NCBI RefSeq assembly: GCF_014203355.1
Contig: NZ_JACHIR010000001.1
Span: 8,558,038 to 8,622,037, forward strand
Length of the DNA stretch: 64,000 nucleotides
From: Kutzneria kofuensis
Lineage (GTDB): Bacteria > Actinomycetota > Actinomycetes > Mycobacteriales > Pseudonocardiaceae
Direction: 5' to 3'
Part shown: positions 5,136-60,577 of the stretch, in pieces
How the letters are laid out: each line of letters opens with the position of its first letter
Numbering within the stretch: the first letter of the stretch is position 1
Notes under the pieces: model-generated
The model's input: the letters and a program-made list of their open reading frames with translations, nothing else
The model's database searches: none
Told to the model about the DNA's origin: nothing
Translations under genes and position numbers: made by a program

Positions 5136-6281
5136 TTGCCCGACCGGACCAGATTCCTCGGCAAAATGCTCGCGGCGGCAGGCACAGCAGTGCTTGCGCT
5201 GGCCACGGCCGTGCCCACCGCCGCGGCCGCGCCATCCACCGTCGACCAGGACGTCGCGCAGCTGTACCAGGACGTCATCGACCTCTACAACGGTCTGCCC
5301 GCGAACGCGCTGCGCGGCGTCGACCGGCTCATCGACTCGCCCATCCCGCGAATCGGCCCCCGATTCCGGCCCGCGCAGGACCCGATACCGGGCTGCACCG
5401 AGGGGGCGCTGCTGACCTACGCGAACAAGCTCGCGGCACAGCTCACCCCGCTCGAGGGCAAGGCCCTCGACGCGTTGTCGGGGCTCAGCCAGCTCTACGT
5501 CCAGGGCGTCGCGTCCGACAAGTCCCCGCAGGTCTTCGGCACCGACGGCCAGTACACCTCGCGCGCCACGGCCACGATCGACAAGCTGCGTGGCTTCTGG
5601 GACATCGAGAGCTGGAACATCCAGCTCGTCGCCTGGAAGGGCACCGATCTCGGCAGCCAGGCGAAGATGGCGCAGACCTTCAGCCTCGGTCTCGCGCCGG
5701 CGAAGGTGAAAGCCGCTGCCGCGCTCGCCACCCAGGTGCTCTACGAAGTGCCGGCACTGCAGGGCGGCCGCAACCCGTTACTCACGCTGAACGCGTTCTC
5801 CGCCCCGGCCGACAGCCTCGGCGGCAAGCGCGTGGCGCTCGGTGACGGGCTGCTCGACACCGTCAACCTCCTCGGGTTCGACGACGTCTCGGTGGAGTCC
5901 GTGGTCGGACACGAGTACGGCCACCAGGTCGACTTCGCGCACAACAACTACCCGAGCAACGAGTCGTCCGAGATGGGCCCCGACGCGTACGGCGGCTATT
6001 TCGTCACGCATGCCAAGGGTTTCGGCTGGAATTCCCGCCTCCAGCAGGAGGTCACCTACCTGGACGCCTCCATCGGTGACTGCTACCACAGCCACGGCAC
6101 CCCCGAGCAGCGCAAGGCCGCCGGCGCCTGGGGTGAGAAGCAGGCGACGAGCCAGGGCAACCCGAACCGGATCATCCCGTCCGCCACGATGATCGAGAAG
6201 TTCCAGAAGGAATACCCGAAGCTGATGCCGCCGGCCACTGACCAGTCGGCCGCGACCACGCTGGCCGCCGCTCACCGTTGA
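5136..6281 (+). CDS. Secreted HExxH zinc metallopeptidase
   Basis: 381 residues from TTG 5136, chosen because an AAGAGGGGA Shine-Dalgarno ends six bases before it and a signal peptide then begins immediately (PDRTRFLGKMLAAAGTAVLAL... cut near TAAAA). An upstream in-frame GTG at 5088 would put 16 polar residues in front of the signal. The mature protein has VVGHEYGHQVDF at about residue 265: HEYGH is an HExxH zinc site, and the downstream SSEMGPDAYGG can supply the third ligand. Four or more Cys suggest disulphides. It probably acts as an extracellular protease of unknown specificity. It is monocistronic with its own terminator. Confidence 0.75.
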   Translation: MPDRTRFLGKMLAAAGTAVLALATAVPTAAAAPSTVDQDVAQLYQDVIDLYNGLPANALRGVDRLIDSPIPRIGPRFRPAQDPIPGCTEGALLTYANKLAAQLTPLEGKALDALSGLSQLYVQGVASDKSPQVFGTDGQYTSRATATIDKLRGFWDIESWNIQLVAWKGTDLGSQAKMAQTFSLGLAPAKVKAAAALATQVLYEVPALQGGRNPLLTLNAFSAPADSLGGKRVALGDGLLDTVNLLGFDDVSVESVVGHEYGHQVDFAHNNYPSNESSEMGPDAYGGYFVTHAKGFGWNSRLQQEVTYLDASIGDCYHSHGTPEQRKAAGAWGEKQATSQGNPNRIIPSATMIEKFQKEYPKLMPPATDQSAATTLAAAHR

Positions 6282-10187: not shown

Positions 10188-11993
10188 ATGACAGCCAACG
10201 TCGCGGACTACGTGCTCGAACGCCTGCGCCAGTGGGGCGTGCACCGGGTCTTCGCCTACCCGGGTGACGGCATCAACGGGCTGCTCGGGGCGTTCGATCG
10301 AGCCGGCGGGGATCCGGAGTTCGTCCAGCCCCGGCACGAGGAGATGGGCGCATTCATGGCGTGCGCGCACGCGAAGTTCACCGGCGAGGTGGGGTGCTGC
10401 ATGGCCACGTCGGGGCCGGGTGCGGTGCACCTGCTCAACGGCCTGTACGACGCCAAGCTGGACCACCAGCCGGTGGTGGCGATCGTGGGCCAGCAGAAGC
10501 GCACCTCGCAAGGGGCGCACTACCAGCAGGAGATCTCGTTGGAGAACCTGTTCGCCGACGTGTCGGAGTTCTGCCAGGTGTGCATGCACCCGGCGCAGGT
10601 CCGGCACGTGATCGACCGGGCGTTCAAGACCGCGTTGACCCTGCGCGGTGTGGCCACCGTGATCATCCCGGAGGACGTGCAGGAGGAGGCGGCGCAGCCG
10701 TCGCCGCCGAAGGCGCACGGCTCGGTGTTCTCGAGCGTGGGCTGGAGTCAACCGCGGATGCTGCCCGACGAGGGCGAGCTGCGACGCGCCGCCGGTGTGC
10801 TCAACGAAGGCAGCCGGGTGGCGATGCTGATCGGCCAGGGCGCGGCGCACGCCGCCGCCGAGGTGGTCGAGGCGGCCGAGATCCTGGGCGCCGGGGTGGC
10901 GAAGGCGCTGCTGGGCCGGGAGGTGCTGCCCGACGACCTGCCGTTCGTCACCGGGCCGATCGGGCTGCTGGGCACCAAGCCCAGCGACGAGATGATGAAC
11001 GACTGCGACACCCTGTTCATGGTCGGCACCAGCTTCCCCTACAGCGAGTGGCTGCCCGACGAGGGCCAGGCCCGCGGTGTCGAGATCGACATCGACGGGC
11101 GGATGATCGGCATCCGCTACCCGATGGACGCGCACCTGGTCGGCGACGCCAAGGAGACGCTCAAGGCGTTGATCCCGCTGCTCAAGCGGAAGAGCGACCG
11201 GTCGTGGCGGGAGACGATCGAGCGCAACGTCCGCACGTGGGACCGGGTCATGGCCGATCGGGCCGGGCAGCACTTCGGCGGCGTGATCAATCCGCAGGCG
11301 GTCGCGCAGGAGTTGTCGCCGCGGCTGCCGGACAACGCGATCGTGACCGCCGATTCCGGCTCCTCGACCAACTGGTGGGCCCGGCACCTGAAGCTGCGCA
11401 AGGGGATGCGGGCGTCGCTGTCGGGGACGCTGGCCACGATGGGGCCGGGCGTGCCGTACGCGATCGCCGCCCGGTTCGCCTACCCGGACCACCCGGTGAT
11501 CGCCTTCGTCGGCGACGGCGCGTTCCAGATGAACGGCATGAACGAGATGATCACCGTCAAGCGCTATCTCGACCGGCTGGCCGGCTCCCCGCCGCTGGTG
11601 TTCTGCGTGTTCAACAACCAGGACCTCAACCAGGTCACCTGGGAGCAGCGGGCGATGGCCGGCGACCCGAAGTACCTGGGCTCGCAGTACATCCCCGACA
11701 TCCCGTACGCGCGCTATGCCGAACTCGTCGGGTTGCGGGGCATCTACTGCGACGACCCGAAGGCGGTCGGCTCCGCCTGGGACGAGGCGTTGGCCAGCGA
11801 CCGCCCGGTGGTGCTGGAGTTCAAGGTGGACCAGCAGATCGCGCCGATCCCGCCGCACATCATGTTCGAGCAGGGCAAGAAGGCGGCCAAGGCAGCGCTG
11901 CACGACCCGGAGAAGGTCGGTATCGCCACCCGCGGCTTCCGCCAGAAGCTGGTCGAGTTCTACGAGAAGCTGCCCGGCCGTGACGCGGACTGA
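10188..11993 (+). CDS. Thiamine-diphosphate-dependent enzyme (pyruvate oxidase/acetolactate synthase-like)
   Basis: 601 residues, ATG preceded by GCGGAGGG. Three-domain ThDP fold: the N-terminal PYR domain begins DYVLERLRQWGVHRVFAYPGDG and has the activating Glu in QPRHEEMGAFMA (about residue 51); a central domain covers about 190-330; the C-terminal PP domain has VGDGAFQMNGMNEM (GDG at about 442) and VFNNQDLNQVTWEQ for Mg-ThDP binding. It resembles the pyruvate oxidase/acetolactate synthase group used for 2-oxoacid decarboxylation. It heads an apparent operon with an enolase-superfamily enzyme (14-bp overlap) and an FAD/Fe-S dehydrogenase, suggesting a sugar-acid or hydroxy-acid pathway. The actual substrate is not readable. 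Confidence 0.85.
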   Translation: MTANVADYVLERLRQWGVHRVFAYPGDGINGLLGAFDRAGGDPEFVQPRHEEMGAFMACAHAKFTGEVGCCMATSGPGAVHLLNGLYDAKLDHQPVVAIVGQQKRTSQGAHYQQEISLENLFADVSEFCQVCMHPAQVRHVIDRAFKTALTLRGVATVIIPEDVQEEAAQPSPPKAHGSVFSSVGWSQPRMLPDEGELRRAAGVLNEGSRVAMLIGQGAAHAAAEVVEAAEILGAGVAKALLGREVLPDDLPFVTGPIGLLGTKPSDEMMNDCDTLFMVGTSFPYSEWLPDEGQARGVEIDIDGRMIGIRYPMDAHLVGDAKETLKALIPLLKRKSDRSWRETIERNVRTWDRVMADRAGQHFGGVINPQAVAQELSPRLPDNAIVTADSGSSTNWWARHLKLRKGMRASLSGTLATMGPGVPYAIAARFAYPDHPVIAFVGDGAFQMNGMNEMITVKRYLDRLAGSPPLVFCVFNNQDLNQVTWEQRAMAGDPKYLGSQYIPDIPYARYAELVGLRGIYCDDPKAVGSAWDEALASDRPVVLEFKVDQQIAPIPPHIMFEQGKKAAKAALHDPEKVGIATRGFRQKLVEFYEKLPGRDAD

Positions 11994-44067: not shown

Positions 44068-45660
44068 TTACTGATCATCTCCAAGACGTTCTAGCGTCCT
44101 GACTGGTCGGGAGGTCTCGTGTCCGGTGTGACAGAACGCCAGTGTTGTTTCGTCGGCATTCGTGATGTCCTGTTGTGGTGATGTGTCCGAGAAATAAAGA
44201 ACCGCAACAGCGCTATTGCGAGAACCGTCGTTCATGTTGCGCGTGAATGCGGAGACAAGGTCCTTTCTGGCATGTGTGTTGTTATGATTGGGTGCCATTT
44301 TGTTCGGGATGGACGACGGTCCGTTGGTGGTGGTGCCGTCGGCGTGATTGTTGTCCTGGAGTGCGCCAGAGTTCCCGGTGGTGTTGTGGTCGTCCGTGAT
44401 CACGGCGGGGTGGGGATCGCGCACGGGGCGGGGTGAGGTTGCCGTGCCGCGAGGTGTCGGCGTCAGGCGCGGGAGGTCCGCGTGAGTGTCGGGGTGCGGG
44501 GCCGGTCCGGCGGCGGGGTGGCCGTGTTGGGCGGTGTGCCAGCGATGTTCGAGGTGCGCGAGGAGTCGCTGTTCGAGTTCGGGGGCGACGTGGCTGTAGG
44601 TCTCGACGATGCGGTTGTCCAGGTGGTGGCCGAGGCGGCGGGCTTGGGCTATTTCGGGGATGTTGTCGGCGATGAGCCATGTTTTGTGGCTGTGGCGTAG
44701 TCCGTGGAAGGTCAGGCCGGGCTTGATCGGATAGGTGCGTGTCGGTGGGCCTTCGATGGTGAGATTGCCGTCCGCGGCGGGGCGCAGGACGCGGCGGATG
44801 AAAGTGGAGCGCCATAGCCAGGTGCCGCTGGGGGTGGTGAACACGTACTCGTAGGGGTGGGTGTCCAGGTGTGTCCGCAGCAAGTCGACCAGGAACGGGG
44901 GGAGTTGGATGCGGCGGGCGGAGGCGGCGGTTTTGGGTGGGCCGATCCAGCGTGTGCTTGTCGACTCGTGCAGGGCGCCATGTTCGCGGTCGATGATCAG
45001 CAGGCCGTGGTGTAGGTCGATGTTGTGGCGGTGTAGGCCGGTGAGTTCGCCCCAGCGGCAGCCGGTCCAGGCGGCGGTGATGATCAGGAGGCGGGCGGTG
45101 GGTCCGCCGAGCGTGCCGGCTTGGTCGGCGATGCGCAGGACCTGCTCGGGGGTGGCCCAGATCTTCTCTGGGGTGATTCGGCGGGAGCGGCGGCCGCGGC
45201 GGCGGCGTTTGTGGATGGGGTTGGCGGGGATGAGGCGTTGGTCGACGGCGTCGGTGAGGATCATGGACTGCAGGTTGACCCAGCCGGTGATGGTGGCGCG
45301 GGCGTAGCCGTTTTCGGCGGCTTCTTTGGTCCAGAGTTTGATGTCGAGGGTGGTGATGGTGCCCATCGGGGTGGTGCCGAAGCGGGGCAGGATGTGGCAG
45401 CGCAGGTAGCTGTCGTAGTTTTCCAGGGTGCGTTGGTCGAGGTCGAGGGTGGGGAACCAGCGCTTGACCCAGTCGGCCAGGGTGGTTTGGAATCCGGTGG
45501 GGTCGAGCCAGGTGCCGCGGCGTTGGTCGGTTTCCAGGTCGTCGGCGTAGTTGGTGGCGGCTTTTTTGGTGGGGAACCCGGGTATTGATCCGGTGGTGCC
45601 GTCGGCGCGTCGGAAGCGGACGCGCCAGGTCTGTGTTCCGGTCTTCTCGATCCAGGCCAT
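44068..45660 (-). CDS. Tyrosine site-specific integrase
   Basis: 530 residues from ATG 45660 (GGAGG upstream). N-terminal arm-binding domain with KKAATNYADDLE, core-binding SAM-like domain (~residues 55-150), and the catalytic domain with the full set R202 (GCRWGEL), K243, H319 and R322 (HGLRHSHKT), H345 and nucleophile Y355 (VETYSHV). About 175 residues after the Tyr are Pro/Thr/His-rich and unusual; the stop may have been lost by mutation. It resembles integrases of actinomycete integrative elements (pSAM2 type) that use a tRNA 3' end, and a tRNA-Ala 3' fragment lies beyond its 3' end. No excisionase or replication gene is seen beside it. Confidence 0.85.
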   Translation of the reverse strand: MAWIEKTGTQTWRVRFRRADGTTGSIPGFPTKKAATNYADDLETDQRRGTWLDPTGFQTTLADWVKRWFPTLDLDQRTLENYDSYLRCHILPRFGTTPMGTITTLDIKLWTKEAAENGYARATITGWVNLQSMILTDAVDQRLIPANPIHKRRRRGRRSRRITPEKIWATPEQVLRIADQAGTLGGPTARLLIITAAWTGCRWGELTGLHRHNIDLHHGLLIIDREHGALHESTSTRWIGPPKTAASARRIQLPPFLVDLLRTHLDTHPYEYVFTTPSGTWLWRSTFIRRVLRPAADGNLTIEGPPTRTYPIKPGLTFHGLRHSHKTWLIADNIPEIAQARRLGHHLDNRIVETYSHVAPELEQRLLAHLEHRWHTAQHGHPAAGPAPHPDTHADLPRLTPTPRGTATSPRPVRDPHPAVITDDHNTTGNSGALQDNNHADGTTTNGPSSIPNKMAPNHNNTHARKDLVSAFTRNMNDGSRNSAVAVLYFSDTSPQQDITNADETTLAFCHTGHETSRPVRTLERLGDDQ

Positions 45661-45964
45661 GACGACCTCCCAGAGTTGTGGGTTGGGAGGTGTCATTGTG
45701 GACAAAATTGTGGTGGGGCGTCGGGGAAGTTCGGTTCGTCTGTTGGGAACCGCCCAAGCTATCTCGCGAGGCGGCGGCGAACAGGCGGTGTCCTGGTGCG
45801 CTCCTTGGTGGAGCTGGTTGGTCCGGGTAGGACGGTGCCCGCCGGCCGCGCGGAGCCCGGTCCGGTGATCGGGATCTTCGGGCTCGCTCTCGGTGTCGTG
45901 ATCCAGCACACGTCAGGAGGACAACGGTCGATCCGGACCGAGGGGCCGGGCAGTCGTCCGACCG

Positions 45965-52062: not shown

Positions 52063-52926
52063 ATGAACATCGCCATCGTCGTCATCGTCGTCATCGTCGC
52101 CCTGATCCTGCTGGCGACCGCGCTGAAGATCATCAAACAGTACGAGCGGGGCGTGCTGTTCCGGTTCGGCCGGGTGCGCGGCACCCGCGAGCCCGGCCTG
52201 CGGGCCATCATCCCGTTCGTCGACGTGCTGCGCCGGGTGACCCTGCGGATCGTCACGATGCCGATCCAGTCCCAGGGCATCATCACCCGCGACAACGTCA
52301 GCGTCGACGTCTCGGCGGTCGCCTACTTCCGCGTCGTCGACGCGGTGAAGTCGGTCGTGGCGATCGAGGACGTCTACGCCGCGATCGACCAGATCGCGCA
52401 GACCACCCTGCGCAAGGTCGTCGGCCAGCACACCCTCGACCAGACGCTGTCGGAGACCGACAAGATCAACCTGGATATCCGCACGATCCTCGACGCCGTC
52501 ACGCTGGACTGGGGGGTCGAGGTGACGTTGGTGGAGCTCAAGGACATCCAGCTGCCCGACACCATGAAGCGCGCGATGGCCCGCCAGGCGGAGGCCGAGC
52601 GGGAGAAGCGCGCCAAGATCATCAACGCCGAGGGCGAGCTGCTCGCCGCCGCGGCGCTCGGCGAGGCCAGCGACGTCATGGTCGCCCACCCGCTGGCGCT
52701 GCAGCTGCGCAACCTGCAGAGCCTGGTCGAGATCGGCGTGGACAAGAACACCACCGTCGTGTTCCCGGCCCCGCTGATGAGCATGATCGGCGAGCTCGGC
52801 TCGTTCCTCGCCGGCGAGACCGCGGCCGCGAGCCGGATGGGGTCGCCGCCGGTTCCCGCGCCGCGGATCGTCGCCAACGCCGGGGAGTACGACCGGTCGG
52901 TGCCAACCCCGGGCTCGGTCCAATAG
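52063..52926 (+). CDS. SPFH/band-7 (slipin-type) membrane protein
   Basis: 287 residues, ATG 52063, GAGGTG upstream. One N-terminal helix (IAIVVIVVIVALILLATAL) then the band-7 domain: QYERGVLFRFGRVRGTREPG, NVSVDVSAVAYFRVVD, TLRKVVGQHTLDQTLSETDK. A coiled-coil region follows (MKRAMARQAEAEREKRAKII, AEGELLAAAALGEASDVM). Slipins form membrane-bound oligomers that organise lipid domains and often partner with an NfeD protease, which is not seen here. It stands between katE and the CBS operon and is presumably part of the stress set. Confidence 0.88.
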   Translation: MNIAIVVIVVIVALILLATALKIIKQYERGVLFRFGRVRGTREPGLRAIIPFVDVLRRVTLRIVTMPIQSQGIITRDNVSVDVSAVAYFRVVDAVKSVVAIEDVYAAIDQIAQTTLRKVVGQHTLDQTLSETDKINLDIRTILDAVTLDWGVEVTLVELKDIQLPDTMKRAMARQAEAEREKRAKIINAEGELLAAAALGEASDVMVAHPLALQLRNLQSLVEIGVDKNTTVVFPAPLMSMIGELGSFLAGETAAASRMGSPPVPAPRIVANAGEYDRSVPTPGSVQ

Positions 52927-53044
52927 CCGCTGTCGACGAAGGGGATTCGCCCGGCCGGCCGGGACCGGGCCGCGCCGGCCACCCGATTGTCCGGGGCGTC
53001 CGGCACTGTCGCACCCCCCTGAACTGTGCGACGGTGAGGTGTCC

Positions 53045-53067
53045 GACCATCCAAGACCCTGATGGCC
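53045..53067 (+). promoter_or_regulatory. Island element copy A
   Basis: GACCATC, 9 bp, GATGGCC. The inner arms CCATC/GATGG are fully complementary. 29 bp later a GATCAGGAGGTG Shine-Dalgarno and ATG 53097 follow. Copies B and C have CCACC/GGTGG in the same place, so the pairing is kept although the base differs. Confidence 0.6.
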
Positions 53068-53096
53068 CGTTTTCCGGTGTGATCAGGAGGTGTGGG

Positions 53097-53255
53097 ATGT
53101 GCGTGACTCGTGACATGGGCGTCCGGAGCCCCGATGGAACAGCTGCCGGCGAACGGGACGAGCGAACGCCGGCATGGCCGCGACGGGGTCGTCCCCGTAC
53201 CAGACGGTCACTCGACCCGGGAACCAGGACGACGCCCGCGACGGCGGGGCTGTGA
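53097..53255 (+). CDS. Leader ORF upstream of the CBS-BON gene
   Basis: 52 codons from ATG 53097 behind AGGAGGTG; ends 10 bp before the CBS gene start. The product is Arg/Thr/Pro-rich without a domain (MCVTRDMGVRSPDGTAAGER). Its value lies in its position: the same upstream element and Shine-Dalgarno precede two other short ORFs in the island. It could be a regulatory leader, or the transcript start of the CBS operon with incidental coding. Confidence 0.35.
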   Translation: MCVTRDMGVRSPDGTAAGERDERTPAWPRRGRPRTRRSLDPGTRTTPATAGL

Positions 53256-53265
53256 GGGAAAGAGC

Positions 53266-53871
53266 ATGAGAGCACAGGACGTGATGAGCAGCCCCGCGGT
53301 GACGCTGCACCCGGATCGGTCGGTGTGGGACGCGGCGAAAGTGCTGTCGGCCAACGGGTTCACCGCCGCTCCCGTGGTCGACGGCAACGGACGGCTGCTC
53401 GGCATGGTCACGGCGGCCGATCTGCTGGGCGACCGCGCCCGGCGGGGGTCGCAGCCCTCGGCCGACCTCCCGGCGAGCACGCCCGCCGCCACCGTCGGCC
53501 AGGCGATGACCAGGCCCGACACCGGCGTCACGCCGGACACCGACGTCCGCGACGTCGCCCGGATGATGCTCGCCGAGCACGTCCACAGCATCCCGGTCGT
53601 GGACGCCATGGGTGTCATCGGCGTGCTCACCCGGCGCGACCTGCTGAAACCGGTCGCCAGGGACGACATGTCGATCGCGGCGGCCGTGCGGTCCCATCTC
53701 GCCGCCTATCGTGGCCGCGACCACTGGACCGTGTCGGTGCACGACGGTGCCGTCGCCATCGTCGACGACCTGGACAACGCGACCGACCGCCACGTCGCCA
53801 GGGTCATCGCCGAGGCGGTCACCGGCGTCAGCTCGGTCGAGGTCAGCGTCCGGCCCGAGCCCACCCGATGA
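53266..53871 (+). CDS. CBS-CBS-BON domain protein
   Basis: 201 residues, ATG 53266, GAGGGAAAG upstream. First CBS (MRAQDVMSSPAVTLHPDRSV...FTAAPVVDGNGRLLGMVTAADLL, 1-55), second CBS (TVGQAMTRPDTGVTPDTDVR...VHSIPVVDAMGVIGVLTRRD, 74-130) and a C-terminal BON domain (AAVRSHLAAYRGRDHWTVSV...VTGVSSVEV, 138-195). CBS pairs bind adenine nucleotides; BON binds membranes or partners. Such proteins are part of hypoxia/stress regulons in actinobacteria. Its stop overlaps the GNAT start (ATGA). Confidence 0.88.
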   Translation: MRAQDVMSSPAVTLHPDRSVWDAAKVLSANGFTAAPVVDGNGRLLGMVTAADLLGDRARRGSQPSADLPASTPAATVGQAMTRPDTGVTPDTDVRDVARMMLAEHVHSIPVVDAMGVIGVLTRRDLLKPVARDDMSIAAAVRSHLAAYRGRDHWTVSVHDGAVAIVDDLDNATDRHVARVIAEAVTGVSSVEVSVRPEPTR

Positions 53872-54356
53872 GCCCCGTCCCGGTGATTCGCCAACTGCGC
53901 ACGGCGGACGGGCCGGCTGTGCGCGAACTGCACGACGGTCTGTCCGAACGCGACACCTATCTGCGGTTCTTCACCCTTCGGCCCGCACGGCTGCCGCAGT
54001 TCGTCGACAGACTGGTCAGTGACGTCGCGCGCCGGGCGGCCATCGGCGCGTTCGTCGACGGCGGTCTCGTCGGCGTGGCCAGCTACGAGGTGGCCGCGGA
54101 CGCGGTCACGGCGGACATCGCCGTGGTCGTGGCGCACCACATGCAGACGCACGGCATCGGCACGACTCTGTTGCGGAACCTGGTGTCCTTGGCGCAATCG
54201 GCGGGCCTGCGGCGGTTCACGGCCGAGGTGCTCCTCGAGAACACCGCGATGCTGCGGGTGCTGCGCGACTGCGGCCTGCCCAGCACCGTCAGCCGGGCCG
54301 GCTCGGTGAACCACGTCGTGGTGGAACTGGACGCCGCGTGGGCCGCCGACGCGTGA
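53868..54356 (+). CDS. GNAT-family N-acetyltransferase
   Basis: 162 residues; ATG 53868 overlaps the CBS stop as ATGA, and its own stop overlaps the USP start as GTGA, so three genes are translationally coupled. It has the GNAT order: IRQLRTADGPAVRELHDGLS, GVASYEVAADAVTADIAVVV, the acetyl-CoA loop HHMQTHGIGTTLLRNLV (Q/RxxGxG/A), and the closing FTAEVLLENTAMLRVLRDCG. Similar domains in this context acetylate stress proteins or acyl-CoA synthetases, but the target is unknown. Confidence 0.87.
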   Translation: MSPVPVIRQLRTADGPAVRELHDGLSERDTYLRFFTLRPARLPQFVDRLVSDVARRAAIGAFVDGGLVGVASYEVAADAVTADIAVVVAHHMQTHGIGTTLLRNLVSLAQSAGLRRFTAEVLLENTAMLRVLRDCGLPSTVSRAGSVNHVVVELDAAWAADA

Positions 54357-55111
54357 ACGGGTCCGCCCGGCGGCGACCGTCGCTGACCAGTCAGGTTCCC
54401 GCCGACACGGCGCCGGAACGCATCACCGTCGGTACCGACGGCTCGTACTGGGGTGACCGCGCGTTGTCCTGGGGAGCGGAGCACGCTCGGCTGCGCGGCG
54501 CCCAGTTGCGGGTGCTGCACTCGGCGACCGAGGACCCGGTGTCGACGCTGGCCGACGCGAGTGCGACCAGCGACCTGGTGGTGCTGGGCTGCCGGGGGCG
54601 CCGGCACCGGCTACTGGGCCTCGGCGAGGCAGTGCTGCCCACGGTGGCGGCGGCGCACTGCGACGTGCTGGTCGTCCGTGGCACAGCCGCGGCCCAACGC
54701 GGCGAGAACAAGCGCGTCATCGCCATGGTCAGCGGCGGCCAGAACGACGTCACCGTTGTGGAACACGCGGCCGCCATGGCGAACTCCCACCACGCACGGA
54801 TGGAAGTCCTGCACGCCGAGCCGCCTACCGTCATGGACGACGGCGTCTTCGCCGAGAAGCTGCGAATTGAGGCCCTGCGGCGGCGGATCACGGTGACCAT
54901 GGTGCGGACGCTGCCCCATGACGTGATCGCCAACAGTGACGGCGCCGACCTGATCGTGCTCGGCCGGGGCCGATCCGCCGGACGGCCGTCGAACCCGGGC
55001 GTCGTCACGAAGTCGGCGCTGCACCACGCGCCGTGCCCGGTCCTCGTGGTGCATCCCCGTGCGCCGGCCACACAGCGAACACGCGTCGCCGGTCGGCCCG
55101 AGATGCCCTAG
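54353..55111 (+). CDS. Tandem universal stress protein
   Basis: 252 residues from GTG 54353 (GTGA overlap with the GNAT gene); GTG 54338 is an alternative. Two Usp halves: ITVGTDGSYWGDRALSWGAE...DLVVLGCRGRRHRLLGLGE...HCDVLVVRG (~1-105, with a short middle) and RVIAMVSGGQNDVTVVEHAA...DLIVLGRGRSAGRPS...HAPCPVLVVHP (~110-235). The ATP-loop Gly pattern is only partly kept in both. Third gene of the CBS-GNAT-USP operon, a combination typical of dormancy/hypoxia regulons. Confidence 0.87.
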   Translation: MNGSARRRPSLTSQVPADTAPERITVGTDGSYWGDRALSWGAEHARLRGAQLRVLHSATEDPVSTLADASATSDLVVLGCRGRRHRLLGLGEAVLPTVAAAHCDVLVVRGTAAAQRGENKRVIAMVSGGQNDVTVVEHAAAMANSHHARMEVLHAEPPTVMDDGVFAEKLRIEALRRRITVTMVRTLPHDVIANSDGADLIVLGRGRSAGRPSNPGVVTKSALHHAPCPVLVVHPRAPATQRTRVAGRPEMP

Positions 55112-55178
55112 TGTTGAGCACGTTGGTTTGATGCTGCTCCAGCCCTTGGCGGCGCCGGCGTACGTCCGAGGAGCGGTC

Positions 55179-55505
55179 ATGGTCATCAGTCAACTGCCGT
55201 CGCAGCGGTCTCCCATCCCTGAACCCGAGGTCGTCGGAATCGACGACCTGCCGGTGCTGTTCTCCTACCCGCCGCTGCACGGATGGACGCTGCACAGCCT
55301 GCTGTCCCCGGCAGCCGTCCGGTGCGCGACATGCGACCAATCGAGCCTCAGCGTGCTGGTCGCGACCCACACCGCGAGCGGTGAGATCCTCTGCGCCGCG
55401 TGCTACGGCGTTTCAGCCGTGGCGGCGGCTGCGGTCCAGGGCGGCTGGGGCCGGCCACCTGGTGCCGTCACCGTTCCCCAGCTGGGTCACGGCGATGACG
55501 ATTGA
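55179..55505 (+). CDS. Small protein with a Cys4 zinc-binding-like motif
   Basis: 108 residues from ATG 55179 with GAGGAG upstream. RCATCDQSSLSVLVATHTAS, then GEILCAACYG: two CxxC pairs 25 residues apart make a zinc-ribbon-like site. No domain family recognised. It stands 67 bp after the USP gene and could belong to the same transcript. Function unknown; possibly a nucleic-acid or protein-binding accessory. Confidence 0.55.
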   Translation: MVISQLPSQRSPIPEPEVVGIDDLPVLFSYPPLHGWTLHSLLSPAAVRCATCDQSSLSVLVATHTASGEILCAACYGVSAVAAAAVQGGWGRPPGAVTVPQLGHGDDD

Positions 55506-55566
55506 GTGGCGTTCGGCCCGGCTCGTTCCCACCCAGCCGCCACTGTGGGAGTGTGATGAGGCATCA

Positions 55567-55590
55567 GACCACCCCAGACCACTGGTGGCC
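55567..55590 (+). promoter_or_regulatory. Island element copy B
   Basis: GACCACC, 10 bp, GGTGGCC, followed by CACATCAG, then GATCAGGAGGTGCGCG and ATG 55618. It is nearly identical over ~55 bp to copy C on the opposite strand at 59875-59898, and related to copy A. Confidence 0.7.
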
Positions 55591-55617
55591 CACATCAGTG
55601 CGATCAGGAGGTGCGCG

Positions 55618-55758
55618 ATGAACGCGACGGCGTTGCTGTCGCCGACGGCCGCCCGGCGATCACCGGTCACGGATGGGGCCTCCACCTGCGGAGATCTGGG
55701 CACTTCGAGCTGGCTCGGGATGCTCGACCTTCCGACGTGCACCCTTTGCGGCCGGTGA
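55618..55758 (+). CDS. Leader ORF upstream of the first GAF-ANTAR gene
   Basis: 46 codons from ATG 55618 behind AGGAGGTGCGCG. It starts MNATALLSPTAARRS and ends LPTCTLCGR (CxxC). The start MN-x-TALLS is shared with the leader ORF at 59847 on the other strand, and the upstream DNA is also shared, so both have the same origin. It ends 64 bp before the GAF-ANTAR gene. Confidence 0.5.
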   Translation: MNATALLSPTAARRSPVTDGASTCGDLGTSSWLGMLDLPTCTLCGR

Positions 55759-55822
55759 CGACAAGGTCACGGGGACCCGGTGAGCGCCGACAACTCGTCA
55801 CCGCGACGGGACGGACGGTGTC

Positions 55823-56539
55823 GTGACCGAGAACCACCGGCTGCGGCTGCGTGCACTGCTCGCGGCCGACGACGATCACGGCGTCGGCCCGCTGACTCGA
55901 ATCTGCGCGTTGGCGGTGGTGGAACTCCAGGTCACCGGCGTCGGCGTGACTCTGGTCAGCCGCGCCGGCAGCGTCGACGCGCAACAGCGCCTGGTGCACG
56001 CCAGCGACGCCGTGGCCGCCCGGTTGGAGGACCTCCAGCTCACCGTCGGCGAGGGCCCGGGGCTGACCGCGATCACCTCCGGGGCCCCGGTGCTGGCACC
56101 CGACCTGGGCGCGGCCCGCTCCCGCTGGCCGGCCTTCTGCCCCGACGCCCAGCGCATCGGCGTTGCCGCGGCGTTTGCGTTCCCACTGACCCTGGGAGCG
56201 ATCGCCCTCGGTTCGCTGGACTGCTATCGCGCCACGACCGGCCCGCTGAGCCGCGACCACGTCGCCTGCGGGCTGCTGCTGGCCGAGATGGCGTTCGAGG
56301 CGCTGCTGACCGAGGTCGCGGGACACGCTCCGGACGACGTCGGCTGGCTCTCCGACATCCATGCCGAGGTCCATCAGGCCACCGGCATGGTCAGCTACCA
56401 ACTGGGTGTCGGCGTGCAGGCGGCACTGCTGCGGATCCGCGCCTACGCCTTCGCTCACGGTCTGGCCGTCGCGACGGTGGCCAGGCGGATCGTCGACCGC
56501 AGCCTGCTGCTGGACGACGGAAACGGAACGACACCATGA
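55823..56539 (+). CDS. GAF-ANTAR protein 1
   Basis: 238 residues from GTG 55823. GAF domain ~20-165 (ICALAVVELQVTGVGVTLVS, TVGEGPGLTAITSGAPVLAP, RWPAFCPDAQRIGVAAAFAF). C-terminal three-helix ANTAR-like part ~180-230 (IHAEVHQATGMVSYQLGVGV, LLRIRAYAFAHGLAVATVAR). ANTAR domains bind paired RNA hairpins and stop transcription terminating early; a GAF domain senses a small ligand or redox state. The next gene, another GAF-ANTAR, starts 16 bp later, so the two are co-transcribed. Confidence 0.82.
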   Translation: MTENHRLRLRALLAADDDHGVGPLTRICALAVVELQVTGVGVTLVSRAGSVDAQQRLVHASDAVAARLEDLQLTVGEGPGLTAITSGAPVLAPDLGAARSRWPAFCPDAQRIGVAAAFAFPLTLGAIALGSLDCYRATTGPLSRDHVACGLLLAEMAFEALLTEVAGHAPDDVGWLSDIHAEVHQATGMVSYQLGVGVQAALLRIRAYAFAHGLAVATVARRIVDRSLLLDDGNGTTP

Positions 56540-56555
56540 CGGGAAGGGAGCACGG

Positions 56556-57314
56556 GTGAACGACCACCACGAACAGCGGCTGGCACGGGTGTTCGTCGAA
56601 CTGGCGGACACCCTGGTCGATGACTTCGACATGCTGGAATTCCTGAGCATGCTCGTCGAGCGGTGTGTGGAGCTGTTGGACGTCGCGGCGGCCGGCGTCG
56701 TGCTGTCCGACCAAAAGGGCGGCCTGCGAATGGCCGCGGCCTCCTCGGAACAGGCCCGGCTGGTCGAGCTGTTCGCGGTGCAGACCGACGACGGACCGTG
56801 CCTGGACTGCGTGCGGACCGGCCAGCCGGTCTACAGCACCGACCTGGTCACCGACGCACGGCGTTGGCCCCGGTTCGCCCCCGCCGCCCGCGCCGCCGGC
56901 TTCGTCGCCACCCACGCCGTGCCGATGCGGCTGCGCGGCACCGTGATCGGGGCGTTGAACCTGTTCAAGGCCGAGCCGAACGGCGTCGACCAGCTCAGCG
57001 TGCAGCTGGGCCAGGCCCTCGCCGACGTGGCCACCATCGGCATGCTGCAACAGCGCGCCATCGACGACAACACGGTGCTGGTCGAGCAACTCCAGACCGC
57101 GCTCAACTCCCGCGTGGTCATCGAACAGGCCAAGGGCGTGCTGTCCGCCCACTCCGGTGTGGACATGGACCACGCCTTCGCGGCGCTGCGCGGCTACGCC
57201 CGCTCCCACAACCTGCGGCTGTCCGAACTCGCCTTCACCGTGGCCAACGGCGCCGCCGACCTCCGGGCGATCATGGTCGGCAGCAGGCCACCCGTCCGGC
57301 GCACGAGACAGTGA
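56556..57314 (+). CDS. GAF-ANTAR protein 2
   Basis: 252 residues from GTG 56556 with GGGAAGGGAG upstream. GAF ~25-170 (LVERCVELLDVAAAGVVLSD, PCLDCVRTGQPVYSTDLVTD, FVATHAVPMRLRGTVIGALN) and a clear ANTAR domain ~185-245 (QLQTALNSRVVIEQAKGVLS, MDHAFAALRGYARSHNLRLS). The ALxSRxxIEQAKGxL signature is canonical, so this copy is the best candidate for RNA binding. Cys in PCLDC could be redox-active. Second in its operon. Confidence 0.88.
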   Translation: MNDHHEQRLARVFVELADTLVDDFDMLEFLSMLVERCVELLDVAAAGVVLSDQKGGLRMAAASSEQARLVELFAVQTDDGPCLDCVRTGQPVYSTDLVTDARRWPRFAPAARAAGFVATHAVPMRLRGTVIGALNLFKAEPNGVDQLSVQLGQALADVATIGMLQQRAIDDNTVLVEQLQTALNSRVVIEQAKGVLSAHSGVDMDHAFAALRGYARSHNLRLSELAFTVANGAADLRAIMVGSRPPVRRTRQ

Positions 57315-57364
57315 CCGGGCACGACATCGACCCGACGGTCGTCCGGTCTGGTGCTGGAGGCCTG

Positions 57365-58336
57365 TCACCGATAGGGGGTCCACTGGGCGGTGGTGCGGGC
57401 GGCCCGCAGAGAGTGCAGGCGCCGCCGTAGCTCGATGCCGACCGAGGGAGTCAGGTGGGCGTTGGGCAGCCCGACCGCGACGAGCTTGAGTTCCCGAAGC
57501 TCACGCAGTACCGAGAACCCGGGCCACGCGGTGATGTCGATCCCGTAGGCGTCGGCGAGCTGGCGGTGGCCGTCCGCCGTACGGGCGAAGCGCAGCTGGC
57601 CGACCGCGAGCGGGACCAGGTCCCATTCCCGGGGGCCGACGCAGACGGTGTCCAGGTCGCACAGCACCGGCCCGGCCGGTGTCGTGATCAGGTTGCCCAG
57701 GTGCGCGTCACCGTGGATCACGCTGGCCGGCAGCGGATAGTCCAACGCGGCCAGCGCGGACTCGACCACGCGGCAGCGCCGCGACAGGAACTCGACGTCA
57801 CCTCGGTCCCACCCGCGCATGCCGGTGATCCTGCTGCGCAGATCGGCGATCGGGTTCCAGCGCGGGAGGCGGACATCGGGGATCGGCAGCCGGTGCGGGC
57901 GGGTGAGCACGTCACTGAGCTGAACGGCGGTCGGCGTCGAGCCGGTGTCGGTGACCTCCTTCCAGAAACTCACCGCGTGTGTGTCGACCTCCACCGGATT
58001 CGGTATGCCGAGCAACGGTCTCACCGCCGGAATTCCGTTGGCGGCCAGCATCCGCCCGGCGGCCACGGCCGAGTGGGCCCGATGCGCCAGCCCCTCGGTG
58101 AGGGTGACTCGGACCACCACCCGATGCCGCACCAGCCGGAACACCGCGTTGTTGACCAGGCGGACCAGTGCGGCGCCGGCGGGGTCCAAGCCGACCTGCG
58201 CGCACGCCCGGGCCAGGACCGCCCAAGGCGCGTGCGGAGTGAGTCCTGAGACCACGGGGACAGTGCCCACCCTGGTTCCCCTTCGCTCAGGCACGATCGC
58301 AAGACGGGCTCTCGCAGCCGTGCCGCGGGGAGGCAT
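57365..58336 (-). CDS. Aminoglycoside phosphotransferase-fold protein
   Basis: About 323 residues if ATG 58336 is used; GTG 58270 is equally possible and no Shine-Dalgarno decides. Kinase-like fold: VNNAVFRLVRHRVVVRVTLT (N-lobe), Brenner motif VIHGDAHLGNLITT (catalytic Asp) and metal-binding VLCDLDTVCVGPREWDLVPL. Homologues phosphorylate antibiotics, choline or other small alcohols; many in actinobacteria are of unknown substrate. Convergent with the GAF-ANTAR operon. Resistance should not be assumed. Confidence 0.8.
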   Translation of the reverse strand: MPPRGTAARARLAIVPERRGTRVGTVPVVSGLTPHAPWAVLARACAQVGLDPAGAALVRLVNNAVFRLVRHRVVVRVTLTEGLAHRAHSAVAAGRMLAANGIPAVRPLLGIPNPVEVDTHAVSFWKEVTDTGSTPTAVQLSDVLTRPHRLPIPDVRLPRWNPIADLRSRITGMRGWDRGDVEFLSRRCRVVESALAALDYPLPASVIHGDAHLGNLITTPAGPVLCDLDTVCVGPREWDLVPLAVGQLRFARTADGHRQLADAYGIDITAWPGFSVLRELRELKLVAVGLPNAHLTPSVGIELRRRLHSLRAARTTAQWTPYR

Positions 58337-58619
58337 TCGATCAGCCTTGTGCTCGTGATCGGGGACGCCTCCGGGATCGCGCAGGGTCCTGGCGCGGGGA
58401 CGAAGTACGCTGGAAGCGGCGTGCATCACGCAGAGTAGGGCGAAGCCGGACCCTGACCTACCGCCATCCAGGCACGGAGTCATCACCGACGGGCGAACTG
58501 GACGGTGTCCTCGGTGCGACGGTCCTGGAGCCAATGGGGCACAAGCGATTCCGCACGACACCGGCTAACGTGGGATGTGATCAGCAGTACCGTCGACAGC
58601 GCGCTGTGGGGCGGCGGAT

Positions 58620-59369
58620 GTGAGCAGCGACCGGGCCGACAGGGTAATAGCGGCGATCAACGATCTCGCCCGTGCCGAGGGAGCGCCGGTCGCGATCCGG
58701 CACGTGTGCCTGGCCTGTGCCAATGCGCTGCACGCCAGCGGAGTCGCGCTGTACGTGATCGGTGACCTCGGACTGGGCGAACCGGTCCACGCCATCCACC
58801 CGGTCGGGGGCCAGGTCGCCGAGTTGCAGGTCACCCTCGGCGACGGACCCGCCATGCAGGCGCTGGCCGACCCCTATCCGGTCGCGGCGCCTGATCTGTC
58901 CAGCAGCCAGGCGCAGACCGACTGGCCGGTGTTCGCGGCACAGGCGTGGGCCCTTGGCGTTCGGGCAGTGTTCGCGTATCCGCTGGCAATGGGAGCGATC
59001 ACGGTGGGCGCCCTGGAGATCCACCGGGCCGTCGCGGGCGGATTGTCGGCCGCCGAGCGCGTCGACGCGCTGTTGTTCGCCGACGTGGCGATGCGCCTGA
59101 TACTCGACCGGGTGCAGGACATCCCCACCGTCGGGGAGCACGAACTGTTCGCCAGCGAGTTCGCGGTGCCGTGGGGCGGAATCCACCGCGCCACCGGCAT
59201 GGTTTCGGTGCAACTGCACAGCGACCTCGTCACGGCGTTCCTGCGGCTGCGCGCGCATGCGTTCAGCACGGATCGTCCACTGTCGACGGTCGCGGACGAC
59301 GTGATCGAGGGCAGGCTGCGCTTCACCCCCGATCCCACCGACGAGACCGGTCCCGCGACCGATCCGTGA
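58620..59369 (+). CDS. GAF-ANTAR-like protein 3
   Basis: 249 residues from GTG 58620. GAF ~20-165 (IRHVCLACANALHASGVALY, QVTLGDGPAMQALADPYPVA, RAVFAYPLAMGAITVGALEI) and a C-terminal ANTAR-like part (IHRATGMVSVQLHSDLVTAF, LRLRAHAFSTDRPLSTVADD). It is closest to protein 1 (same IH-x-ATGMVS-x-QL block). The ANTAR part is divergent from RNA-binding examples, so its target may differ or be lost. It is convergent with the STAS gene. Confidence 0.78.
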   Translation: MSSDRADRVIAAINDLARAEGAPVAIRHVCLACANALHASGVALYVIGDLGLGEPVHAIHPVGGQVAELQVTLGDGPAMQALADPYPVAAPDLSSSQAQTDWPVFAAQAWALGVRAVFAYPLAMGAITVGALEIHRAVAGGLSAAERVDALLFADVAMRLILDRVQDIPTVGEHELFASEFAVPWGGIHRATGMVSVQLHSDLVTAFLRLRAHAFSTDRPLSTVADDVIEGRLRFTPDPTDETGPATDP

Positions 59370-59413
59370 CCACCTTCACCGTGCCGGAGACGGACCACCG
59401 TCGCAGGTCATGG

Positions 59414-59797
59414 TCACTTCGCTGGCGCAGGTGACAACGAGTGCGGGCAGTCGGAGGTCGTGGTCGGTGCGAGGAGAAGGTCGTGTGTTCCGGTCACGGT
59501 GAGCAGCCGGCGCACGATCCGGGCCGGCGCCACCAGGCACAGCGAGCCACCCGCGGCGGCCGCCCGGGAGCGCCAGCGCACGAACAGTGTCAGCCCGGCG
59601 CAGCCGCAGAACCGGAGCTCGGCAAGGTCGACGACCAGATCGCGGCCGGCCTCGGCCAGCGGTCGCACGTCCGAGTCGAGCCCGGGCGCGGTGGCCATGT
59701 CCAACTCGCCCTCCAGCCTGATCCGGACCAGGTTCCGGTCACTGTGGACGGTCCAGCCGAGTGGCGCGCGGGTCCGACTGCTCACGGTCCCGTTCAC
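59414..59797 (-). CDS. STAS-domain protein (anti-sigma-factor-antagonist-like)
   Basis: 127 residues from GTG 59797, which overlaps the leader ORF stop as GTGA. VRIRLEGELDMATAPGLDSD, LVVDLAELRFCGCAGLTLFV, GSLCLVAPARIVRRLLTVTG is a complete STAS fold. The phosphorylatable Ser of SpoIIAA-type proteins (DSSG) is Cys-Gly-Cys here (FCGCAGL), so regulation by phosphorylation is doubtful; cysteine chemistry is possible. It normally frees a sigma factor by binding an anti-sigma kinase. No kinase gene is in this window. Confidence 0.82.
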   Translation of the reverse strand: MNGTVSSRTRAPLGWTVHSDRNLVRIRLEGELDMATAPGLDSDVRPLAEAGRDLVVDLAELRFCGCAGLTLFVRWRSRAAAAGGSLCLVAPARIVRRLLTVTGTHDLLLAPTTTSDCPHSLSPAPAK

Positions 59798-59847
59798 GGC
59801 TGGGAAGCGATGACCGGCCGCGACGAGAGCAGCGCCGTCAGATTCAT
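59794..59847 (-). CDS. Leader ORF coupled to the STAS gene
   Basis: 17 codons from ATG 59847 behind AGGAGGTACGAG: MNLTALLSSRPVIASQP. Its stop overlaps the STAS start (GTGA), which suggests translational coupling. The start MN-x-TALLS and the upstream DNA match the leader ORF at 55618. Confidence 0.5.
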   Translation of the reverse strand: MNLTALLSSRPVIASQP

Positions 59848-59874
59848 CTCGTACCTCCTGGTCGCTCTGATGTG

Positions 59875-59898
59875 AGCCACCAGTGGTCTGGGGTGGTC
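59875..59898 (-). promoter_or_regulatory. Island element copy C
   Basis: On the minus strand: GACCACC, 10 bp, GGTGGCT, then CACATCAG, GACCAGGAGGTACGAG and ATG 59847. The 10-bp spacer CCAGACCACT is identical to that of copy B. The 4.3-kb-apart inverted copies cannot be one recent tandem duplication. Confidence 0.7.
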
Positions 59899-60037
59899 GG
59901 ATGACACGGCGGGCCGGGCTCAGTGGGGCAGGGTCACGGCGGGCGACGCGGGCAGGTCAGGCGCCAGACCCGGCCGCGAAAGGGTGTTCGTTCGATCCGG
60001 CGGCGGATCTGGCCAGATCGGCGTCCGGTGCGGCAGG

Positions 60038-60577
60038 TCAGTCGAGTCCGGGTACTCGACCGCCGTCGCCCTCCCAGCGGTCCTCGGCTCCGTCGGACGC
60101 CACACGAGGGCGTGGTATCGGTTCGCCGGACGAGACGCCGGCCATGGCCAGGATCGTCGCCGGGCTGTCGGCGTTGTCCCGCAACCCGGCGGCCATCATC
60201 GCGTCGTGCCCGGTCGCGTCCGCGGCCTCCGGAGGGACCACGAGTAGGGTGACACGCCGCCCGTCCAGCCCGATGACGTGCACGATGTCCTTGTCCTGGA
60301 AGCGGAATCCCTCCAACCGGACGCGCCAGCCGTCGATCTCGACCCGACGCGGAGTCGTGCCCCAGGCGGCCATCGCGAACACCACCCGATGCACCACTCC
60401 CAGCCGGACGGCCAGCACCCCGGCCAGTGCGGGCAGTTCCGCGGCCAGGTCCCGGGACCGCGGCCACCAGCCGCCGTCGACGTATCCGGTCGTCGGCCCC
60501 TGCGGCTTGAGTCTCAACCTGAGCTGTCGCTGCCCCACCGAGGCGGGACCGGCGTGAACATGTGGGCCCGACGTCAT
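60038..60577 (-). CDS. DUF5994-family protein
   Basis: 179 residues from ATG 60577. LRLRLKPQGPTTGYVDGGWW and PRSRDLAAELPALAGVLAVR open the family, RVEIDGWRVRLEGFRFQDKD, VTLLVVPPEAADATGHDAM and MMAAGLRDNADSPATIL complete it. Found mainly in actinobacteria, function unknown; often near stress and GAF-ANTAR genes. A truncated second copy lies at 62415. Confidence 0.8.
   Translation of the reverse strand: MTSGPHVHAGPASVGQRQLRLRLKPQGPTTGYVDGGWWPRSRDLAAELPALAGVLAVRLGVVHRVVFAMAAWGTTPRRVEIDGWRVRLEGFRFQDKDIVHVIGLDGRRVTLLVVPPEAADATGHDAMMAAGLRDNADSPATILAMAGVSSGEPIPRPRVASDGAEDRWEGDGGRVPGLD

Follow-up and report, generated by a model that had tools for sequence, protein, structure and literature searches.

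What might switch a group of neighboring stress-related genes in Kutzneria kofuensis together? We examined this question in a 64,000-nucleotide stretch of the chromosome (positions 8,558,038 to 8,622,037 of contig NZ_JACHIR010000001.1), referred to here as the window, in which a unit of about 60 bases, running from a core element through a ribosome-binding site to a start codon, was found three times in one gene island. The initial annotation of the window had interpreted the core as the operator of a stress regulator or as an RNA leader hairpin, with the genes behind it forming a single regulon. Because the unit occurred three times in the island and two more times in the sister species Kutzneria sp. 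744, we concluded that these genes probably share it as a control leader. Specifically, the element is probably a real, local, and lineage-restricted control leader with three copies, two of which are conserved in sp. 744.

An element repeated in front of three transcription units

All three copies were confirmed from the sequence at the positions and on the strands originally proposed. Copy A was GACCATC-N9-GATGGCC at positions 53045 to 53067 of the plus strand (full reading, GACCATCCAAGACCCTGATGGCC), copy B was GACCACC-N10-GGTGGCC at 55567 to 55590 of the plus strand (full reading, GACCACCCCAGACCACTGGTGGCC), and copy C was GACCACC-N10-GGTGGCT at 59898 to 59875 of the minus strand (full reading, GACCACCCCAGACCACTGGTGGCT). 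The core of copy A, in which GACC-N6-GACC was followed by CTGATGGCC, was identified via the sequence, an alignment, and the three-copy model described below; the cores of copies B and C were identified via the sequence, a core search, and the same model. Each copy was indeed followed by a strong Shine-Dalgarno sequence (AGGAGGTG in copies A and B, AGGAGGTA in copy C) and an ATG, which was located at 53097 after copy A, 55618 after copy B, and 59847 (minus strand) after copy C. The gaps between the element and the ATG were 29, 27, and 27 bases, respectively. When the five strong copies (A, B, and C, plus K744_A and K744_B of sp. 744) were aligned, GACC-N6-GACC was followed by CTGRTGGC, after which a variable spacer led to GAYCAGGAGGTR and ATG. 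The direct repeat GACC-N6-GACC, with its 10-bp period, was common to all five and had not been pointed out in the initial annotation.

The likeness of the three copies was assessed via local alignment and compared to the maximum score of 500 dinucleotide shuffles. Copies B and C scored 113 (shuffled maximum, 30), copies A and B scored 50 (shuffled maximum, 34), and the likeness of copies A and C was less clear (score, 30; shuffled maximum, 27). The initial annotation had described a B-C match of about 55 bp; the likeness held, and its extent was larger, covering 90 columns for B and C and 74 columns for A and B. In both pairs, the similarity started about 5 to 10 bases 5' of the core and extended past the Shine-Dalgarno sequence into a possible short open reading frame (ORF), and the spacers of copies B and C were identical at 10 of the 12 positions. 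Since the similarity ran beyond the palindrome and through the Shine-Dalgarno sequence and ATG, the shared unit resembled a leader and not a bare site.

Next to this likeness stood a high specificity in the 10.4-Mb genome. When up to 3 mismatches were allowed, the 23-base core of copy B matched only copies B and C. With the three-copy model, a sequence-only model of 60 positions that was built from copies A, B, and C, E values of 4e-18 for copy B, 2.5e-17 for copy C, and 8.3e-14 for copy A were obtained, and the next match had an E value of 0.23. Thus, the full element was not scattered through the genome. The two-arm pattern, which had been suggested for such a scan, was unspecific: the two arms alone, with a spacer of 8 to 11, yielded 54 genome sites (28 forward and 26 reverse, palindromic sites being scored on both strands) versus 23 in a reversed control (14 plus 9). 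This comparison indicated that arm symmetry was not the signal. A perfect 5-bp inverted repeat with a loop of 8 to 11 was present in 21 to 24% of shuffled 62-mers.

Conservation of two copies in Kutzneria sp. 744

The three-copy model identified two strong copies in Kutzneria sp. 744, with E values of 2.3e-14 and 5.1e-14 (next match, 0.028). These copies preceded the orthologues of the CBS gene (81% identical) and the first GAF-ANTAR gene (82% identical) in a collinear stretch, and copies A and B were therefore retained upstream of orthologues, as expected for the operator of one regulator.

In the case of copy A, a block at positions 53021 to 53136 of the plus strand, which included an upstream stretch, the core, the Shine-Dalgarno sequence, the ATG, and the next 37 bases, was identical in 112 of 116 columns between the two species; the left and right flanks of this block were identical in 64 of 96 and 108 of 138 columns, respectively. 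In the case of copy B, the core (23/23) and GATCAGGAGGTG (12/12) were fully identical in the two species, the spacer between them was identical at 6 of 12 positions, and identity after the ATG was 66/96. An upstream block of the B pair was identical at 51 of 55 positions, the sequence to the left of this block was identical at 28 of 60, and sp. 744 carried about 38 extra bases before the core. These additional bases, which separate the block from the core, fit a 5' leader. The 23-base core was identical in copy B, copy C, and the sp. 744 B copy (23/23). We read this conservation pattern as a likely nucleotide-level constraint, which in copy A would be wider than a bare operator. The extra sp. 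744 sequence 5' of copy B (around 10835 to 10880 of stretch L040) contained a strong inverted repeat, GACGCGGC-GTGTG-GCCGCGTC.

The STAS gene behind copy C had no orthologue in sp. 744: the best match by E value was 36% identical, and none of the nine matches exceeded 43%. This finding suggested that copy C was probably generated when the B leader was copied in front of a species-special gene. At the level of sequence, these comparisons established that the copies had a common origin, that the genome held no further strong copies, that two copies occupied orthologous positions, and that the core was more conserved than its surroundings. A related element did precede three units, as originally proposed; a single regulon was too strong a claim, since it would reach no further than two or three units within 7 kb in two species, with no further strong copy in either genome.

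A proposed factor-bound leader and its alternatives

We considered it most likely, with a probability of roughly 0.42, that the three copies represent a duplicated 5' leader whose core is bound by a factor beside the ribosome-binding site, and we ranked a DNA operator as a close second. The leader would comprise the conserved core of about 23 bases, a variable spacer, and a strong Shine-Dalgarno sequence, and it would extend into the first part of a possible short ORF. One trans-acting factor would bind the core adjoining the ribosome-binding site, and its binding would set the expression level of the short ORF; the stress gene located behind the short ORF would then follow via coupling or operon structure. 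This reading infers transcription of the leader, binding of a factor, translation of the short ORF, and control at the level of translation. After copy C, the stop codon of a 17-amino-acid ORF overlapped the GTG of the STAS gene (GTGA), which suggests translational coupling.

The leader was also analyzed for RNA folding. A hairpin between CCAYC and the CTGRTGGC strand had five pairs, and 25 of 25 cells were paired over the five strong copies. In two sequences, one pair had both of its bases replaced, a single double change that separated the A type from the B/C type and that had been taken as a sign that the symmetry was under selection. That claim was too strong: when three random substitutions were simulated, 1.8% of the runs replaced both bases of a pair and left all five pairs intact, and the covariation score was reached by 49 of 500 partner shuffles. 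A second helix, which joined CTGRTGGC to GNGAYCAG at the Shine-Dalgarno sequence, had seven pairs, with 35 of 35 cells paired in the five strong copies. Over the copies in alignment A3, the closed form had A-U, G-U, or G-C at pair 27-48 and the open form had U-A or C-G at pair 14-27, so that the changed base was paired in both forms. The two helices are mutually exclusive, which suggests a switch. Single-sequence folds had z scores of -0.8 to -3.3 for the five copies and -1.3 to -4.1 when copies A, B, and C were folded as slightly longer pieces, and the folds of copies B and C leaned toward being more stable than shuffled sequences (z, -2.6 to -4.1). Predicted pairing of GGAGG was 0.80 in copy B and K744_B (the top 14% of background) and 0.70 in copy C (the top 31%). 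The background consisted of 29 starts from the window and stretches L040, L055, and L057, which partly represent the same sp. 744 region.

Several observations weighed against a leader of this type. The score of the second helix was reached by 304 of 500 partner shuffles, and the consensus fold was not significant compared to shuffled alignments (p = 0.15; fixing the Shine-Dalgarno columns gave p = 0.11). Copy A had z scores of only -1.3 to -1.6, the values of K744_A and K744_B were -1.6 and -0.8, respectively, and GGAGG pairing in copy A (0.61) and K744_A (0.60) equaled the mean of the background starts (0.59). The short ORF was not visibly conserved as a peptide, its frame was open upstream of copies A and B, and its stop codon in sp. 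744 was far from the CBS start. In addition, a sigma-70 consensus scan of positions 52900 to 60050 found no promoter, and the evidence base consisted of five copies in two species. Because the consensus fold was unremarkable and Shine-Dalgarno pairing was near background in copies A and K744_A, we graded an RNA switch as no more than possible. A bolder version is a lineage-restricted switch of a new class, in which CTGRTGG would pair with CCAYC (leaving the Shine-Dalgarno sequence free) or with AYCAG (the closed form), and a factor holding GACC-N6-GACC would decide between the two forms and tie the CBS, GAF-ANTAR, and STAS genes to one signal; we believe this version to be improbable.

If the core instead acts as double-stranded DNA near the transcription start, then one transcription factor would read the direct GACC half-sites, 10 bp apart, and the TGGC half-site that follows them as a dimer or multimer. 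The 10-bp spacing of GACC-N6-GACC was exact in all five copies, whereas the distance between the inverted arms varied from N9 to N10, and the 23/23 identity of the core in copies B, C, and K744_B was footprint-like. The upstream sequence was also kept within each pair, in A as part of the 112/116 block and in B at 51/55. However, a regulator with no further strong site in a 10.4-Mb genome would be unusual unless it were strictly local, and the duplicated similarity took in the Shine-Dalgarno sequence and ATG, which are needless for an operator. Moreover, additional bases separated the upstream block from the core in the sp. 744 B copy, and no candidate regulator emerged. An operator is a tentative, if plausible, explanation.

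Alternatively, local duplication might have left similar upstream regions in the island without any common regulator. All of the K. kofuensis copies were within 7 kb of one island, and copy C, whose 90-column likeness to copy B took in the short ORF, preceded a STAS gene that was absent from sp. 744. A mere leftover would not readily account for a core that was identical in B, C, and the sp. 744 B copy when the spacer of the B pair retained 6/12 and the sequence after the ATG retained 66/96, or for the 112/116 block of the A pair between flanks of 64/96 and 108/138; we therefore viewed this explanation as unlikely. We also examined whether the ANTAR proteins encoded in the island, whose genes are located behind copy B, might target the element as RNA. 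According to PMC8164766, overlap with the ribosome-binding site is common among the ANTAR RNAs of actinobacteria, but the defining stem pair with A1-G4 hexanucleotide loops was absent from the element. When stems of at least 3 pairs were accepted and one of the two loops was allowed a single unconstrained position, four of the five leaders (220 to 360 bases each) lacked such a pair, and the pair in the B leader was more than 200 bases downstream and occurred at the shuffled rate. Judged from these scans, an ANTAR target seems very improbable.

If the core binds one factor, then the element would provide a handle on the joint switching of the CBS, acetyltransferase, universal stress protein, GAF-ANTAR, and STAS genes and on the signal behind such stress islands in a little-studied actinomycete. 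In addition, the copying of a control leader onto a newly placed gene (the STAS gene) could then be traced in a small example. With a range of five copies in two species, its wider weight is modest.

Distribution beyond the two species

The three-copy model found no strong element in the other five of the seven Kutzneria genomes searched (best E value, 0.027). Four of these five genomes had CBS homologues with 51 to 56% identity and GAF-ANTAR homologues with at most 45% identity, and the fifth (G087) had neither at the cutoffs used. When 200 genomes of the family were searched with model R1, six matched at an E value of 0.01 or less: the K. kofuensis and sp. 744 genomes matched strongly, and the four others had E values of 0.004 to 0.009. 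In the sequences of the sites in these four, no core followed by a Shine-Dalgarno sequence and ATG, as in copies A to C, was seen. A looser pattern matched 11 of 390 family genomes, namely, K. kofuensis, sp. 744, Kutzneria viridogrisea, and eight more, which we hold to be chance matches; the one of the eight that was viewed in its genomic context, a Pseudonocardia kunmingensis sequence, overlapped the 3'-terminal part of a long ORF.

The K. viridogrisea site (from position 6243 of L055) contained GACC-N6-GACCAC-N-GGTGG, followed by GTGATCAGGAGGTG and a 22-amino-acid ORF, and was located before a HalD-family halogenase gene. Its E values were 0.027 with model R1 and 0.009 with model R2. Since six other genomes among 397 genomes of the order reached E values of 0.001 to 0.005, we held this site to be at noise level; it was left out of structure alignment A3 and included in alignment A4. 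In the search of the 397 order genomes, seven matched at an E value of 0.005 or less, and none of the six besides K. kofuensis was convincing from the sequence of its site. Only the K. kofuensis genome matched among 394 genomes of the class. Kutzneria sp. 744 was evidently missing from the samples of the order and the class, since its copies would otherwise have produced matches. A pattern scan of a genome contig collection yielded five stretches, including Kutzneria, P. kunmingensis, and one Pseudomonas stretch that was left aside, and no convincing copy outside the two species. The core pattern was not found in viral contigs, and a blastn search of plasmids with 96 bases around copy B produced no match.

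Downstream genes and neighboring features

The gene assignments of the initial annotation (CBS, GNAT, universal stress protein, two GAF-ANTAR proteins, and STAS) were correct based on Pfam, with some domains below the cutoff. The possible short ORF after copy A (53097 to 53255, plus strand; 52 amino acids) had a start inferred from the Shine-Dalgarno sequence and a frame that was open upstream to 51450. It was followed by the gene for a CBS-domain protein (53266 to 53871, plus strand), in which a BON domain was below the Pfam cutoff, a GNAT acetyltransferase gene (53868 to 54356, plus strand) whose ATG overlapped the CBS stop codon (ATGA), and a gene for a universal stress protein with two Usp stretches and an uncertain start (54338 to 55111, plus strand; Pfam and ORF list). 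In sp. 744, the ORF from the equivalent ATG stopped after 21 amino acids. The A ORF ended differently in the two species by eye, and a peptide function of the short ORFs was rejected.

The possible short ORF after copy B (55618 to 55758, plus strand; 46 amino acids) likewise had a start inferred from the Shine-Dalgarno sequence, and its frame was open upstream to 55381. Its sp. 744 counterpart had 54 amino acids and many amino acid changes by eye; the codon differences, judged by eye, were mostly amino acid changing, and this ORF was also rejected as a functional peptide. Behind it were the genes for GAF-ANTAR protein 1 (55823 to 56539, plus strand), in which both domains were below the Pfam cutoff, and GAF-ANTAR protein 2 (56556 to 57314, plus strand; Pfam and ORF list). 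The K. kofuensis genome contained 14 matches to GAF-ANTAR protein 1 at an E value of 1e-8 or less, itself included, and some of them were adjacent. After copy C, the possible 17-amino-acid ORF noted above (59794 to 59847, minus strand; by eye and ORF list) led into the gene for the STAS-domain protein (59414 to 59797, minus strand; Pfam).

Three further features were observed. A small ORF at 55059 to 55505 (plus strand), between the universal stress protein gene and copy B, contained Cys-x2-Cys pairs (RCATC and LCAAC) that were also seen in sp. 744 by eye; it had no Pfam family at an E value of 0.001 and is possibly a zinc-ribbon protein. A phage-type integrase gene was located at 44068 to 45909 (minus strand), about 7 kb before the island. 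In sp. 744, positions 5212 to 6203 of L040, which are 5' of an SPFH gene, contained sensor kinase- and response regulator-like pieces in several frames by eye, and only 5657 to 5769 was matched by the window; this region is possibly a decayed two-component system.

Comparison with known systems

Our search of the open literature found no description of the motif. A DasR-like half-site, AGACCACT, in copy B was set aside by eye because the other half was wrongly oriented and copy A lacked it. As described in PMC5069765, the OsdR/DevR (DosR) box has the consensus AGGGCCGATCGGCCCT. Up to 3 mismatches, this consensus had no match in the island; in the whole window, a single match was present, at 11250 and with 3 mismatches, as expected by chance (0.84). 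The island resembles the OsdR/DevR regulon, as presented there, in that a universal stress protein gene and other stress genes are grouped and share an upstream element, but the element lacks the 16-bp palindrome of those boxes.

ANTAR-target RNAs, as defined in the work of Mehta and Ramesh (2021; PMC8164766), comprise two stem-loops with hexanucleotide loops that carry A1 and G4 and are joined by a linker of 2 to 25 nucleotides. Like the actinobacterial members of this group, the element is located at a ribosome-binding site beside ANTAR genes; unlike them, it lacks dual stem-loops with A1/G4 hexaloops, which were not found in the element when the five leaders were scanned.

A search of Rfam 15 produced no credible match; there were six matches below the gathering threshold (best E value, 0.087), and one of them (E value, 3.4; other strand) touched copy B. 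Riboswitch and attenuator leaders that sequester the ribosome-binding site form a general kind of control leader. The element differs from such leaders in that its folding signal was not significant and no Rfam class was matched, and it resembles them in that its central strand can pair with either the upstream arm or the Shine-Dalgarno region.

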